A DNA stretch of 34,968 bases from positions 1 through 34,968 of the forward strand of contig JARFQE010000115.1 in assembly GCA_029287915.1 (NCBI GenBank), given 5' to 3'. The translations under genes and the position numbers were made by a program. The stretch comes from Arenicellales bacterium. GTDB lineage: Bacteria > Pseudomonadota > Gammaproteobacteria > BMS3Bbin11. Below, piece by piece: positions 5,130 through 32,481 of the stretch (its first letter is position 1; the number at the start of each line of letters is the position of its first letter). The notes beneath the pieces are model-generated. The model saw only the letters and a program-made list of their open reading frames with translations. It was not told the DNA's origin and did not search any database.

Positions 5130-7004
5130 TTAATTGGGAGCAGCCAGAGCAACAGCCCGTTGTGTAGCAAGGCATTGGTTATAGTTCATCCATTCAGGGA
5201 GTTCTTTTTTCATGAGCCTGTTCAGGCGCCGATTCAGACCACTAAGTTCGAGCTTATACGGTATCAGCATGTTTTCCGGTAAATAGATGATCAGGGAAGA
5301 TAACTGCAACAAATTTTGAAGTGCATTTTCCAGTTCAGTCAGGTGAAAGGCGGTCAGCTTGGGAAGACTACCTTCAAGTTTCTGTGCTGGTATCCGGATT
5401 GCTGGTAGTACCTTTTCATTTATCGGTGCGGCGATTTCGTTTGCCGTAGTATTAGTAGTGACCATCAACCAATCGGGTTCATTTTTAGTTATCTGCTCCG
5501 GCTTAATTCTGCCTGGCATTTCATCCCCCGTTAATACTTTCTCGAGATAAGCCAGTTTCGTCAGTAGCTGGAGAAACCTCTGCTGGTCTGGTTCCTCAGC
5601 AAGTCTGAAGTTGAGTTCATCCAGTTTATTACGTAATGGCAATCGTTCATTAACTGTATGGGTGGTTTGATTACCTCCATCAGTTTTAATTTGTCTGATT
5701 CGGGCTTCCAGTTCTTTTGCCTGTTCGCTTATCTGAATAAGTGAGCGACTGTAGTTGGAGACTTCCTTACGGGCGTACTCTAAGACGGGTAGGGCAAGCC
5801 CTGCCAGTTCACGAAATCTGAAAATGGCATCTTTGACATAGAAATCCATATTCATGCTTTCCCAAACGCTGATGGAATCATTCATTTCTTCATAAGCAAG
5901 CATCAGTGGACGGCTGCTAAACTCATAACCAACATTACTGAAGGCAGTTGTGAACTGTGTGCGAGCGTCAGGTTTAATAAGGCAATGGGAAAGAGTAGTT
6001 TCTATCACTTCTTTATTAGCCTCATTCGTTACGATGGCCTTTTTCTTTGCCGGAACATCGACAGCAGGCTTACTAGACGTCGCTTTCTGGACTGTATCAA
6101 TAATCTGGTCATTGATTGCAGGCATAAATTCAGGGAAAAGGATGCCCGCGGCTTTCCATCCAATAAGAAATATCAGCAGTGAAAGCAGAAAGCTGAATAG
6201 AATGTTATCTTTTAGAAATTTTACAGGAGAGAATTTACTCTCAGTTGCGCCACCGTATATCTTCTCGATGACATTTTCCATGTTCTGATCTTCATCTTTC
6301 TCCCGATAGGAATCGATATTATCGATCAGGTAGCGCCGGGCAGAACTATTTGACCATGCTGTACGAACAACTTTTTCAGGTTTTTTTACTGTCTCCAGAA
6401 TGGATTTAATAGGACTGTCGCTCGTTGTTCCGTCGTCATCTTCTAAATCATCAACAGTAGCGCCTGTGTTATTACTGCCATGCTGTATATCCTTGTCAAA
6501 ATCTGCATCGGCTATGCCTGAGCTAAGCATTACCTGCTCATTATCGGCTTTATCCCCCGGTGATGGATCTTCAGCGGATATTTCCTGTTCTGAGCCAGGG
6601 CCGGGTTTTCCTGCCAGAGGCTTCTCGATATGGAGGGAGCTTGCATTAGATTCAGCTTCGGCAGAGGCGGCATCTGGAATGGTCGTATTTGACGCTTCCT
6701 GATCTGTCGCCACGCTTTTATTCAAGTCGAAATCGTTGGCAGAATTGCTCGTAGTTGACGATTTTCCATCACTTTCCAGAGAAAGATGTGAAGTATTGAT
6801 TGCCGGGGCTTCCTGCTTTCTATCGTTTTCCAGCGCACTTCCCGCCTGTGCTGCTATCTCGTCGACAGATAGATGCGAGATATCGATATCGGTAGATTCT
6901 TCAACTGTATTTTCATCTAATAAAGGTTTGTCCAGTGAACTACTGGTAGACAAAGGACGTTTAGTACCTTGATCTGGTATTTTCTTGTCTTCTTTTACAG
7001 TCAT
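5130..7004 (-). CDS. Unrecognised single-span membrane protein with long acidic N-terminus
   Basis: I do not recognise a family for this 624-residue protein. Residues 1-255 are low-complexity, rich in Ser, Asp, Glu and Asn, and probably disordered and cytoplasmic. They hold a short motif seen twice (SHLSVDEIA near 43 and SHLSLESDG near 72). One membrane segment is clear at about 267-290 (FSFLLSLLIFLIGWKAAGILF). The rest, about 300-624, is probably periplasmic and helical, with a likely coiled coil around 415-475 (ELEARIRQIK...). No catalytic motif is visible. The ATG at 7004 has no ribosome site; TATAAT sits six bases before it, so the message could be leaderless. It follows cca by 53 bp on the same strand, which would also allow read-through transcription. 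Confidence 0.8.
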   Translation of the reverse strand: MTVKEDKKIPDQGTKRPLSTSSSLDKPLLDENTVEESTDIDISHLSVDEIAAQAGSALENDRKQEAPAINTSHLSLESDGKSSTTSNSANDFDLNKSVATDQEASNTTIPDAASAEAESNASSLHIEKPLAGKPGPGSEQEISAEDPSPGDKADNEQVMLSSGIADADFDKDIQHGSNNTGATVDDLEDDDGTTSDSPIKSILETVKKPEKVVRTAWSNSSARRYLIDNIDSYREKDEDQNMENVIEKIYGGATESKFSPVKFLKDNILFSFLLSLLIFLIGWKAAGILFPEFMPAINDQIIDTVQKATSSKPAVDVPAKKKAIVTNEANKEVIETTLSHCLIKPDARTQFTTAFSNVGYEFSSRPLMLAYEEMNDSISVWESMNMDFYVKDAIFRFRELAGLALPVLEYARKEVSNYSRSLIQISEQAKELEARIRQIKTDGGNQTTHTVNERLPLRNKLDELNFRLAEEPDQQRFLQLLTKLAYLEKVLTGDEMPGRIKPEQITKNEPDWLMVTTNTTANEIAAPINEKVLPAIRIPAQKLEGSLPKLTAFHLTELENALQNLLQLSSLIIYLPENMLIPYKLELSGLNRRLNRLMKKELPEWMNYNQCLATQRAVALAAPN

Positions 7005-10360: not shown

Positions 10361-11305
10361 ATGAATTCGGACATTCACGATTGGCTGGCGAAAAGGCTGG
10401 GAGAAATTTATGCTCGCCAGCGGCTTGGCATTGAAGATGAAGCACCGCGAGTTTTTGGCAAAGGCTTGAATTTCTTCCATCCGGAGAACTGGTATTCCGC
10501 ACATGCCATGCTGCGCTATCTGTTAAAACTCACTGGTGTCTACTGGTATGGTCGGCGCAGGACGCTTGATATCCGGCTCAAGCAAAACGATATTGAATTG
10601 CCACATCTGCCAGCTGCCTTTGATGGACTGACCCTGTTGCACCTCAGCGACTTGCATGTAGATATGTACCCTGAGGCGACGCATACGTTGATCGAACTTG
10701 TAGAGACACTTGACTATGATCTGTGTGTTATTACCGGTGATTATCGTGCCTGGACAACAGGTGCTATCGATGCCGCCATGACTGGCATGCGATCCCTGTG
10801 TACGGTATTGAAAGAACCAGTGTATGCCGTGCTTGGTAACCACGACAGTATTCGCATGGTACCAGAACTCGAGGATATGGGTATCCACATGCTGCTGAAT
10901 GAATCAACCATTATCAAACAGCAGGATGAAAAACTGTATCTCGCCGGTATCGATGATGCGCATTACTTTCGTGTGCATAATCTGGAGAAATCAGCATATG
11001 GGATACCGGCTGATGCCGTATCTATCCTGCTGTCGCATACGCCGGAGATCTATCGTCAGGCGGCACATACAGGTTTTGACGTCATGTTGTGTGGTCACAC
11101 TCATGGTGGGCAGATTTGTCTACCGGGCGGCTATCCACTGACTCTGGATGCAAAGTGCCCGCGCTATATGGGCTCGGGCAGCTGGCGCTACCATACTATG
11201 AAAGGCTATACATCGGTTGGTGCCGGTACAAGCATTGTCGATGTGCGCCTGAACTGTCCACCAGAAGTCACATTGCATCGGCTACGCAGGTCAAATAAAA
11301 CCTGA
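10361..11305 (+). CDS. Calcineurin-like metallophosphoesterase (YaeI-like)
   Basis: This is a dinuclear metal phosphoesterase of 314 residues. All family motifs are present in order: Asp97 and His99 (LSDLHVD), Asp127 (ITGDYR), Asn160-His161-Asp162 (GNHD), His226 (LLSHTPE), and His246/His248 (CGHTHGGQ). The GHTHGGQ ending is typical of the YaeI/LpxG-like group, some of which act on lipid or UDP-sugar pyrophosphates; the substrate here is unknown. Residues 1-85 are an N-terminal extension with no clear membrane helix. An in-frame TAA at 10340 rules out an earlier start. The nearest ribosome-like sequence (AGCAGG) is 13 bases away, which is far. It is convergent with the next gene, 13 bp between stops. 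Confidence 0.88.
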   Translation: MNSDIHDWLAKRLGEIYARQRLGIEDEAPRVFGKGLNFFHPENWYSAHAMLRYLLKLTGVYWYGRRRTLDIRLKQNDIELPHLPAAFDGLTLLHLSDLHVDMYPEATHTLIELVETLDYDLCVITGDYRAWTTGAIDAAMTGMRSLCTVLKEPVYAVLGNHDSIRMVPELEDMGIHMLLNESTIIKQQDEKLYLAGIDDAHYFRVHNLEKSAYGIPADAVSILLSHTPEIYRQAAHTGFDVMLCGHTHGGQICLPGGYPLTLDAKCPRYMGSGSWRYHTMKGYTSVGAGTSIVDVRLNCPPEVTLHRLRRSNKT

Positions 11306-11318
11306 GAGATAAGTGCGC

Positions 11319-11792
11319 TTACCAGGGCTGTTTTCGAATATGCAGCGAATACAGAACGCGAGAAAGCAGCACTTCGAGTACCCAGAAAATAGCCACCAGC
11401 ATCACTACTTCATGCCATCGCAGTCCCAACGGGGTGGCACAGACAGCTAGCGGCAGCAGCGCTTCAGGGATCTGGTCCAGGCCCGGCGCCTTGCTGCTAG
11501 GTGGCATGCCGAGGCGGCGTTTGGTAAAGCTTGAGAACAGGTCACCTGCCATTGACAGGGCACCTATCGATAATCCCAGTTTCCATCCCAGCCCTATGAC
11601 TTCAGCGGCGAGCGTCGTAAAGGACACTGCCAGCAGAATACCGCGGATGGTCTTGGATTCGCCCAGTAAAGGATTGCCATCGGCAGCCATCAGATTGGCA
11701 TCGAGCGGCCAGGCAGCATGATCACCCAGAAACTTCCTGGCCAGTACCGGGGTACCGTTTGCAACTAGCAGAAGGAAAAGAGCTTCGAGCAT
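11319..11792 (-). CDS. CarS-like CDP-archaeol synthase family protein
   Basis: This is a 157-residue membrane protein with about four helices. It carries the signature of the CDP-archaeol synthase (CarS/DUF46) family, the archaeal relative of CdsA: NGTPVL at 12-17, GNPLLGESKTIRG at 39-51, GDLFSSFTKRRLG at 83-95 and GLDQIPE at 104-110. CarS activates an unsaturated archaetidic acid with CTP. In a bacterium with ester lipids, and with its own cdsA at 31630, the substrate must be different or at least is unknown. It stands alone between the metallophosphoesterase and a 527-bp gap. The ATG at 11792 has no strong ribosome site. Confidence 0.85.
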   Translation of the reverse strand: MLEALFLLLVANGTPVLARKFLGDHAAWPLDANLMAADGNPLLGESKTIRGILLAVSFTTLAAEVIGLGWKLGLSIGALSMAGDLFSSFTKRRLGMPPSSKAPGLDQIPEALLPLAVCATPLGLRWHEVVMLVAIFWVLEVLLSRVLYSLHIRKQPW

Positions 11793-13465: not shown

Positions 13466-13861
13466 ATGCATGACAATGAACAACAAAATATAAGTCCAGA
13501 TCGTAGGCCGGATCAACATCGCTCACGCCACAAAAATTTCCTGCCGTTGATAATCTTTGCTTTTTTTGCTCTGTTTATTGCCGTAAATGAGATTCCTGGC
13601 TTCCGCCATGCCGTCGAGTACTATGTGGCACATGACCGTTGGCAGGCTGCAGAATCCTGCGAAAGCAAGGCCCTGCAAATGGGTTCAACGCCGGACTATA
13701 TGCGCCTAATTGAGCACGGTGATGTTCACAAAACGGAGAAGGGCTTTTTAATCAAAAATATCATTGTTGGTGAAATGGCCGAGCAGGGCGGCGAGCAGCG
13801 TTTTGTTGTAGATTGCTATACTGATGCTGCTGGAAATCTGGTCCGTGCCGACAGGCGCTAG
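13466..13861 (+). CDS. Small single-span membrane protein, unrecognised
   Basis: This 131-residue protein has no family I recognise. Residues 1-24 are hydrophilic and basic, a membrane segment spans about 25-42 (FLPLIIFAFFALFIAV), and the remaining 85 or so residues are probably periplasmic, giving an anchored-tail layout. Two cysteines (about 61 and 116) could pair. The end (FVVDCYTDAAGNLVRADRR) resembles a small beta-strand domain. The start lacks a ribosome site; the strong site belongs to the 22-codon frame just upstream, so translation may be coupled. It is convergent with the next gene, with a short inverted repeat (AGTTAC/GTAACT, 13908-13921) between them but no T-run. Confidence 0.65.
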   Translation: MHDNEQQNISPDRRPDQHRSRHKNFLPLIIFAFFALFIAVNEIPGFRHAVEYYVAHDRWQAAESCESKALQMGSTPDYMRLIEHGDVHKTEKGFLIKNIIVGEMAEQGGEQRFVVDCYTDAAGNLVRADRR

Positions 13862-13925: not shown

Positions 13926-14276
13926 TCAGGTCCCGGCATTGATGACATTTAGGAATGATTCTGACAGCTCACCGCGGCCAGCCTTGTCTAGAAGCATGTC
14001 TGCAGTTTGAACGATATCTGACAGTGGGCCTGTAATATATACCATGCCGAGCTCCAGGGTAACCTGTTTGTCAGCCATGGGGTTGAGCTTGTTGGCATGC
14101 TCAGGAGCCATAAAAAGCATTTGTATTTCTTCTACCTCATCGGGAATATTATCGCAGCCGCCGCCTGCAGCTATAAACTCAAATAATTCTTCAGGGCTAT
14201 GTAGTGGCACGCTTTCTTCATAGAAATCCTGGCCATGTTGCGTTGCCTTGAATTCAACGGTAAGTATCGGCTTCAT
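13926..14276 (-). CDS. Small acidic cytosolic protein, unrecognised
   Basis: This is a 116-residue protein without signal peptide or membrane helix, clearly acidic. I cannot assign a family. Features seen are an N-terminal strand (MKPILTVEFKA), a Gly-rich turn with a Cys (AAGGGCDNIPDEVEE, about 36-50), and a helical end (QTADMLLDKAGRGELSESFL). The ATG at 14276 has a good AGGAGA site about six bases upstream, so it is probably a real gene. It is divergent from nhaA across 141 bp, but nothing links their functions. Confidence 0.7.
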   Translation of the reverse strand: MKPILTVEFKATQHGQDFYEESVPLHSPEELFEFIAAGGGCDNIPDEVEEIQMLFMAPEHANKLNPMADKQVTLELGMVYITGPLSDIVQTADMLLDKAGRGELSESFLNVINAGT

Positions 14277-31395: not shown

Positions 31396-31629
31396 CCCAC
31401 ATCCAGTCGTGGCTGCTCACCGGCAATAGCAATTACTTGTCATCTTACGTAACTGAGAGCCGAATGATTATGGGACATTACGCTGGGCTTGCCTGTGCTT
31501 GCGCACGGATTTCATTATTGAAATTTGTGTTAGCAGCACGACGTCAGCGATTTGTTTTCTCGACGCGAATGTCAACACCCAGGCTGAGTGACAATCATGC
31601 AAGGTTCGGATGAGCCGACAAAGCAGGTC
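31396..31629 (+). other. uppS-cdsA spacer with a doubtful 73-codon frame
   Basis: This spacer is unusually long for the operon. An open frame from ATG 31392, which overlaps the uppS stop as ATGA, runs to 31613 and past two in-frame alternative starts of cdsA. Its product is Arg-, Ser- and Cys-rich and unlike any family I know. No terminator or clear promoter is seen. Confidence 0.4.
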
Positions 31630-32481
31630 ATGCTTAAACAGCGCCTATTGACCGCTGCAGTCCTGATGCCGATATTTCTTGCGGCATTATTTTTGATGGA
31701 TGAGTTGGGATTTTCGATCTTATTAGCTGTAGTTCTTGCTCTTAGTCTGTTTGAGTGGGCTAACTTAAGTGGTATCCAGTCTCACACTATCAAAGGTATT
31801 TATATCGCGGCAGGTATTATCATTGCAGCAATGTTTCTGTATTCCGGTGTGGTGGGACAGGAGCTATTTATCATTGTGTTCGCTCTCTGGCTAGTCGTGG
31901 TATATCGTTTGTTTCAGTTTGCTAAGCGTGAGCATGCATACAAAAGCGCACTAGGAAATGGTCCATTGGCGTGGCTGGATGGTTATTTCGTACTCATCCC
32001 TACGGTATTGGGTCTGCAGGCGTTGAAGGCGTATGACTCTGCCGCACCTCAACTGCTACTGATTTTTTTCTTCATTATCTGGTCAGCAGATACGGGTGCT
32101 TATCTGGCGGGACGCACCTGGGGCAAGCATAAACTGGCTCCCAGAATCAGTCCTGGGAAAACAATTGAGGGTCTCATAGGTGGCCTGCTGGCGGCATTAG
32201 TTGTTGCAGCCCTGGCTGCTGCGCTGGTGTGGGAGCTATCACTGCAGGAGTTACTACTGTGGCTGCTGGCGGTGGCAATTGTCACACTTTTCTCGGTCGT
32301 AGGTGATCTATTCGAGAGCATTTACAAGCGTCGGGCAGGTGTTAAGGATTCAGGTAAACTATTACCCGGGCATGGTGGGATACTTGATCGTATTGATAGT
32401 ACCTGTGCAGCTTTACCGTCCTATATGCTGGTACTTTATCAGTTTGATCTGCTTGCTGCTACAGGCACTTCTTTATCGTGA
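31630..32481 (+). CDS. cdsA: Phosphatidate cytidylyltransferase
   Basis: CdsA makes CDP-diacylglycerol from phosphatidate and CTP at the inner membrane, the branch point of phospholipid synthesis. It has 283 residues from MLKQRLLTAAVLMP, the usual family start. Earlier in-frame GTG 31588 and ATG 31597 would add 14 and 11 residues and cannot be excluded. About eight helices are seen. The family signature is SADTGAYLAGR, then KLAPRISPGKTIEG, and GDLFESIYKRRAGVKDSGKL with LPGHGGILDRIDS. The stop overlaps the dxr GTG start as GTGA. Confidence 0.95.
   Translation: MLKQRLLTAAVLMPIFLAALFLMDELGFSILLAVVLALSLFEWANLSGIQSHTIKGIYIAAGIIIAAMFLYSGVVGQELFIIVFALWLVVVYRLFQFAKREHAYKSALGNGPLAWLDGYFVLIPTVLGLQALKAYDSAAPQLLLIFFFIIWSADTGAYLAGRTWGKHKLAPRISPGKTIEGLIGGLLAALVVAALAAALVWELSLQELLLWLLAVAIVTLFSVVGDLFESIYKRRAGVKDSGKLLPGHGGILDRIDSTCAALPSYMLVLYQFDLLAATGTSLS

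Follow-up and report, generated by a model that had tools for sequence, protein, structure and literature searches.

CarS is regarded as an enzyme of archaeal membrane synthesis, and the question raised by the locus described here is what a relative of this enzyme does in a bacterium that also has an ordinary cdsA. The window, which is the whole stretch of 34,968 nucleotides that was analyzed, comes from an Arenicellales bacterium whose genome (2.78 Mb, 139 contigs, 95.7% complete) contains one CarS copy. The 157 residue product scored 42.4 bits against the CarS-like family PF01864 (cut-off 22, E 9.5e-11), so that the family threshold was passed, and had no match to CdsA (PF01148) at E 1e-3. 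Against NF003114, the equivalog model for CDP-2,3-bis-(O-geranylgeranyl)-sn-glycerol synthase, it reached 71.4 bits, short of the cut-off of 148. A search of the PDB with the window sequence alone returned the CarS of Aeropyrum pernix (ApCarS, 5guf) at E 2.3e-12 with the runner-up at 0.12, and a 55-sequence CarS profile returned the same entry at E 2.2e-21; ApCarS is the sole convincing solved relative of the window protein. These results bear out what an earlier note had claimed from the DNA letters, namely a CarS homologue in a bacterium with cdsA, and the normal cdsA which it had placed about 20 kb away was found at a distance of 19.8 kb (Table 1). No Rfam family was matched anywhere in the window at gathering thresholds, and around CarS and its convergent neighbour no terminators were found (1.6 expected) and five promoters (4.3 expected).

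Table 1. Positions of the CarS-like gene, its convergent partner and cdsA in the window
Feature	Position	Strand	Description	Evidence
CarS-like CTP:lipid-phosphate cytidylyltransferase (predicted activity)	11319..11792	-	ATG start, 157 aa	PF01864, 5guf, residues
YaeI/LpxG-like calcineurin-type metallophosphoesterase (MPE)	10361..11305	+	314 aa, conserved convergent partner	PF00149
Gap between the stop codons of the convergent CarS/MPE pair	11306..11318	.	13 bp	
cdsA (ordinary CDP-diacylglycerol synthase)	31588..32481	+	context only	PF01148, 196 bits

Active-site residues were compared across 107 aligned bacterial CarS rows and one archaeal sequence, ApCarS. The window protein is identical to ApCarS at D31, D38-G39, G44, K47-T48, G51, G83-D84, S88-F89, K91-R92-R93 and D106-Q107. 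Residues D31, G44, K47, D84, S88, K91, R92, R93 and D106 are invariant throughout the bacterial rows (107/107) and identical in 5guf, while D38, T48, G51 and G83 are nearly invariant across the same set. We take the residues common to the bacterial proteins and ApCarS to be the CTP and Mg (metal) binding site. Loss of key catalytic residues was looked for in this alignment and was not seen, the core residues being intact in 107/107 bacterial rows. The earlier statement that all CarS signature motifs are present holds for the core motifs, which match ApCarS, but not for one of them, where the window protein has DQ-x-x-E and ApCarS has DQ-x-D. E110 of the DQxxE motif and F136 occur in 107/107 bacterial rows and P114 in 106/107; the corresponding ApCarS residues are D for E110, sitting one place closer to DQ, V for F136 and G for P114. 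With a single archaeal sequence compared, these three residues offer a lead to a possible mark of the bacterial subfamily, short of proof. A review describes the CTP, Mg and K site of ApCarS (PMC9385802).

The archaeal ether-lipid pathway was considered as the setting for this protein and rejected, as full-length GGGPS was not found in the source genome or in 369 genomes of its class. The GGGPS profile PF01884 gave no match in the source genome (95.7% complete). Among the 369 class genomes 152 matched at E 0.001, with 37 above the cut-off, and the best match had 29.4 bits over 47 of 226 positions. Each of the matches listed covered about half of the profile or less, and we read these partial matches as other TIM barrels. 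As a positive control the same profile gave a signal in 7 of 14 known genomes, including all four archaea. Because the window protein misses the NF003114 cut-off, with 71 bits where 148 are needed, and full-length GGGPS was not found, it is probably not an archaeal CDP-archaeol synthase. With the core residues intact, cdsA present and GGGPS undetected, the natural reading is that it would activate another lipid phosphate with CTP. The earlier suggestion that it acts on a different lipid or polyprenyl phosphate thus gains from the intact residues and the undetected GGGPS as far as CTP activation is concerned; these findings do not extend to the identity of the lipid.

The protein could also be a second CDP-diacylglycerol synthase acting on ordinary phosphatidic acid, a reading in keeping with the retained active-site residues and with the CTP-transferase superfamily which CarS and CdsA have in common, according to a passage of PMC9385802. 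However, the genome already holds cdsA and a further CdsA-type gene (contig C139, PF01148 233 bits), and according to the same source archaeal CarS has a preference for DGGGP over phosphatidic acid and failed to complement an E. coli cdsA mutant, so we regard this reading as improbable. On contig C139 (L112:124-2305) a gene for a CDP-alcohol phosphotransferase is followed by that for the CdsA-type protein and then by one for an acyltransferase. We take this trio of genes to resemble ynbA-ynbB.

The convergent neighbour of CarS had been described as a metallophosphoesterase (MPE) of YaeI/LpxG type, and a convergent MPE was confirmed (Table 1). It scored 47 bits against the calcineurin-like family PF00149, above the cut-off of 21.5, and its nearest NCBIfam models were YaeI (NF008460, 100 bits, cut-off 188) and LpxG (NF033458, 63.6 bits, cut-off 350), both missed; judged by these model scores the MPE is closest to YaeI and LpxG yet a member of neither. 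D97, H99, D127, N160, H161, H226, H246 and H248, which make up the dinuclear metal motifs and are presumably metal ligands, are identical in 85/85 aligned sequences. No hydrophobic segment was detected in the MPE by simple hydropathy (best 19-residue mean 0.86), and a PDB sequence search with the MPE profile gave no match at E 1e-5. The possibility that the MPE is a missing lipid A pyrophosphatase was rejected since LpxH is present elsewhere in the genome (254.6 bits, above the cut-off of 190.35).

When the 55-row CarS profile was run at E 1e-8 against the 369 genomes of the class, CarS was found in 65 genomes spanning 40 family codes. The count rests on this profile, and CdsA hits that stood among a list of 98 genomes are left out of it. 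The MPE search of the same genomes at E 1e-10 matched 81, and those with a best E of 2.5e-54 or lower (54 genomes) were scored as carrying the MPE orthologue, the remaining matches lying across a gap at 2.7e-33 or weaker. Both genes were present in 48 genomes against 9.5 expected from 65 CarS and 54 MPE genomes (Fisher 6e-39, a figure which ignores the relatedness of the genomes). The two were convergent neighbours in 36 of these 48 genomes (25 family codes), divergent in one, fused in frame in four and on different contigs in seven, of which some may be assembly breaks. CarS was found without the MPE orthologue in 17/65 genomes and the MPE orthologue without CarS in 6/54; one genome in which a 52 residue MPE remnant with a stop adjoins CarS (G184) was scored as CarS only. 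Among 37 convergent pairs from other genomes, measured by their ORF ends, 13 have 3' ends that overlap, by 4-20 bp.

The neighbourhood was compared in 74 loci, made up of 68 stretches (66 from the class CarS list and two others) and L002-L007. Besides the MPE, no neighbour family recurs in more than six of the 74, and the most frequent other family (6/74) consists of opposite-strand ORFs which mostly overlap CarS. The same convergent pair is carried by plasmid pMNOD02 of Methylobacterium nodulans ORS 2060 and by plasmid pB32-1 of Bosea sp. F3-2. A plasmid of Variovorax sp. PDNC026 carries CarS and does not appear among those that matched the MPE at E 1e-20. Two loci with the MPE orthologue and no CarS (L174, L175) have adjoining genes that by eye are nucleotidyltransferase-like and polysaccharide genes. 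In the window itself, a 624 residue ORF at 5130-7004 (-) has no Pfam match at E 1e-3, and ORFs at 13466-13861 (+, 131 aa) and 13926-14276 (-, 116 aa) have no Pfam or NCBIfam match at E 1e-3.

CarS and the MPE were also found as a single reading frame, in three Desulfarculales and Desulfobacteraceae MAGs (L004, L005 and L007; L006 is interrupted by a contig end) as well as in the four genomes of the window's class. In the phylum of L004, hereafter the second phylum, the fusion occurs in 22 of 395 genomes (21 full length and one cut at a contig end). The fused rows number 29, of which 27 are complete and stop-free. In a quick 108-row tree, from which three divergent CarS-like proteins (L061, L072, L075) were left out, the fused rows form one clade (SH-aLRT 91, not starred) with the four of the window's class nested within it, so a single fusion event is the simplest reading. 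An AlphaFold2 model of one fused protein (L154) built with 27 fused sequences had a pLDDT of 89.8 and a pTM of 0.83 (74.7 and 0.59 with seven sequences). Residues 1-150 of this model superimposed on 5guf with Z 16.5 (143 aligned, 2.2 A) and residues of about 235-465 matched the fold of calcineurin-like enzymes such as Mre11 and GpdQ; the fused protein is thus predicted with high confidence to consist of a 5guf-like and a calcineurin-like domain. LpxH, LpxG or YaeI-like structures were absent among the 50 fold matches listed, which excludes nothing. At six fusion loci (L160, L162, L163, L168, L169, L170) a B12-radical SAM family protein is encoded nearby on the opposite strand, a call based on TIGR04013 (421 bits) in L162 and on clustering in the other five, and four loci (L150, L151, L152 and L155) have, immediately upstream of the fusion and in the same orientation, a gene whose product is sigma-factor-like by eye. 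In the wider locus set some other neighbour families recur in the second phylum, among related genomes.

The earlier note had called the link between the two genes only proximity, which understates it: CarS is present in 48 of the 54 genomes that carry the MPE orthologue, and the neighbourhood check which it had proposed showed convergent pairs across 25 family codes and fusions in the class and in the second phylum. That CarS and the MPE are hitchhiking neighbours with no functional link would sit with convergent genes that have no common transcript and with counts uncorrected for genome relatedness, but the co-occurrence in 48/54, seven of these on different contigs (some maybe through assembly breaks), together with four fusions in the class and 22 in another phylum, makes this highly improbable. 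The fusion and the co-occurrence indicate that both active sites take part in a single process. One such process would be hydrolysis by the MPE of the CDP-lipid made by CarS, to lipid phosphate and CMP, so that the pair sets the level of CDP-lipid. In its favour, YaeI and the UDP-lipid pyrophosphatase LpxG are the NCBIfam models to which the MPE comes closest, though below the cut-off of both; a synthase fused to a hydrolase would however undo its own work in the absence of regulation, no sign of which was noticed, and we give this reading little credence.

Free-standing CarS genes in the second phylum have a different partner. Fourteen such loci were found at E 1e-20 (L176-L189), and in 14/14 a PHP-type protein is encoded on the same strand as CarS, in 13 as the next gene downstream, with an overlap or a gap of at most 132 bp, and in L187 at 1.45 kb. 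This protein was not found in the 114 other loci searched. One representative of the 14 (L185) was scanned and scored 23.0 bits against PF13263, above the cut-off of 21.3, and fell under the cut-offs of PF02811 (21.8 bits, cut-off 26.4) and of the CehA/McbA model NF038032 (57.6, cut-off 80). Since it passes the first model and fails the other two, the PHP-type partner is graded as a likely phosphoesterase. A gene for an MsbA-like transporter precedes CarS in 6 of the 14 loci (514 bits in the representative, against 602 bits). The 14 CarS proteins fall into one group of the tree (SH-aLRT 83), and the CarS proteins of genomes G138 and G117 join them (SH-aLRT 95, starred). In both of these genomes a CDP-alcohol phosphotransferase gene lies directly downstream of CarS, and in G117 (locus L073) an EEP-family protein is encoded 45 bp from CarS on the side opposite the phosphotransferase.

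A CDP-alcohol phosphotransferase (PF01066) abuts CarS or the fusion in four loci (L050, L059, L073 and L156). In L050 it is divergent from CarS at a distance of 26 bp and the MPE occupies the other flank, so that all three genes are present, and in L073 the gene runs off the contig end. The source genome has a homologue on contig C68 which is the best match to the phosphotransferases of L050, L059 and L073. When 94 genomes were searched at E 1e-20 and counted by hand, a homologue of this type was found in 12/16 CarS genomes and in 41/78 others (p 0.17); since enrichment is not clear, no link to CarS is claimed for the C68 protein and it was set aside as a dedicated CarS-linked phosphotransferase. 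In L072 (3780-4982) a CDP-alcohol phosphotransferase is fused to a divergent CarS-like domain which has DQLDS in place of DQxxE. Two further divergent CarS-like proteins of the class, L061:4594-5151 and L075:2945-3565, match the CarS profile weakly, and the motif in L075 is DHLDS.

These neighbours suggest use of a CDP-lipid by a phosphotransferase, and with it an alternative place for the hydrolase. In this alternative the MPE acts after CarS and the phosphotransferase, in that CDP-lipid and a polyol phosphate would give a lipid whose head group ends in a phosphate, to be removed by the MPE or the PHP-type protein in the manner of a PGP phosphatase. The phosphotransferase found beside CarS or the fusion in four loci, the presence of all three genes in L050, the change of partner hydrolase family from clade to clade and the EEP-family protein in L073 agree with such an order, but in the fusions found here the partner of the MPE is CarS, and the phosphotransferase is seldom adjacent, and we hold this alternative to be doubtful.

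Other neighbours bear on the lipid itself. Directly downstream of CarS, at 10-16 bp, two related genomes have a gene for an EcKL-type kinase (L048:3371-4360 and L049:2133-3107), which is a possible maker of the lipid phosphate. One fusion lies 35 bp from a WecA/MraY-type transferase gene (L159) and another 554 bp from a DedA/UptA-like gene (L167). The latter two would suit a polyprenyl version, in which polyprenyl pyrophosphate is cut to the monophosphate by the MPE and then converted to CDP-polyprenol by CarS; these are however single loci, and in the window uppS, cdsA and dxr are about 19-21 kb away from CarS, so this version seems unlikely to us. The occurrence of uppS, cdsA and dxr together is a common gene order. 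The hints from neighbours vary by lineage and do not settle the lipid.

Family membership, conserved active-site residues, co-occurrence, adjacency and fusion are observations made by computation, and we consider that they are best explained, probably, by a two-enzyme module in which CarS as a CTP:lipid-phosphate cytidylyltransferase and the MPE work on one non-archaeal lipid. In this module the CarS-type integral membrane enzyme would transfer CMP from CTP onto a non-archaeal lipid phosphate, and both it and the dinuclear MPE would work from the cytoplasmic side of the membrane on the phosphate groups of one shared lipid. The MPE, which has no hydrophobic segment of its own, may be placed at the membrane because the fusions put it there. 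In a first step the MPE could cleave a phosphate ester or pyrophosphate linkage to give a lipid monophosphate, comparable to LpxH acting on the pyrophosphate bond of a UDP-lipid; CarS would then charge the lipid monophosphate with CTP to give a CDP-lipid, as its chemistry implies, and a CDP-alcohol phosphotransferase would consume this product. The order MPE, CarS, phosphotransferase is a tentative preference, favored because the MPE is fused to CarS, although a fusion gives only a weak indication of which reaction comes first; action of the MPE after the phosphotransferase comes close behind. Against the module as a whole, convergent genes do not form an operon, the phosphotransferase adjoins in just four loci, and each gene also occurs without the other (CarS in 17/65 genomes, the MPE orthologue in 6/54).

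If the module operates as proposed, Pseudomonadota and Desulfobacterota-type bacteria might possess an undescribed CDP-lipid pathway built from CarS and a phosphoesterase, fused in some lineages into a bifunctional membrane enzyme, whose lipid would be neither CDP-diacylglycerol nor CDP-archaeol, for example a CDP-polyprenol or CDP-activated glycolipid; we put this forward as a possibility to which we lean less than to the module. Such a pathway would lead to a class of lipids that has yet to be assigned in these organisms. A CarS relative with intact core residues is carried by 65 of the 369 class genomes, in which the archaeal GGGPS was undetected, and the conserved phosphoesterase partner and natural fusions provide a concrete route to the CarS substrate.

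Both protein families are already known and their names appear in public annotation: automatic annotation of pMNOD02 and pB32-1 gives CDP-archaeol synthase and metallophosphoesterase. The former label is probably wrong for these bacterial genes and could misdirect attempts to find bacteria that have archaeal lipids. Open-access PubMed Central returned nothing on CDP-archaeol synthase together with metallophosphoesterase and nothing linking CDP-archaeol synthase with Pseudomonadota, and the one paper returned for PF01864 deals with archaea. A passage of PMC7852524 reports that CarS was undetected in the Ca. Cloacimonetes genomes studied, and Gammaproteobacteria and Deltaproteobacteria are unmentioned in that passage.

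Compared with archaeal CarS (PF01864; ApCarS, 5guf), the window protein is alike in size and, as measured on the fused relative L154 (Z 16.5), in fold, and it shares D31, D38, G44, K47, T48, G51, G83, D84, S88, K91, R92, R93, D106 and Q107. It differs in having DQxxE for DQxD, P114 and F136, in reaching 71 of 148 equivalog bits, in the lack of a GGGPS match in its genome, and in that bacterial CarS has a phosphoesterase as its paired gene or fusion partner. CdsA (PF01148) belongs to the same CTP-transferase superfamily, as a passage of PMC9385802 states, whereas the window protein has no PF01148 match and has 157 residues against 297, in a genome which already has cdsA. The MPE resembles the YaeI phosphodiesterase and the UDP-2,3-diacylglucosamine diphosphatase LpxG in its calcineurin-like domain and dinuclear metal motifs, but lies below both cut-offs (188 and 350), and LpxH is encoded elsewhere in the genome. 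The MPE domain of the fused relative shares its fold with the glycerophosphodiesterase GpdQ (Z 15.7) and with Mre11 (Z up to 16.4) at 14-20% identity, a common fold that shows no function.
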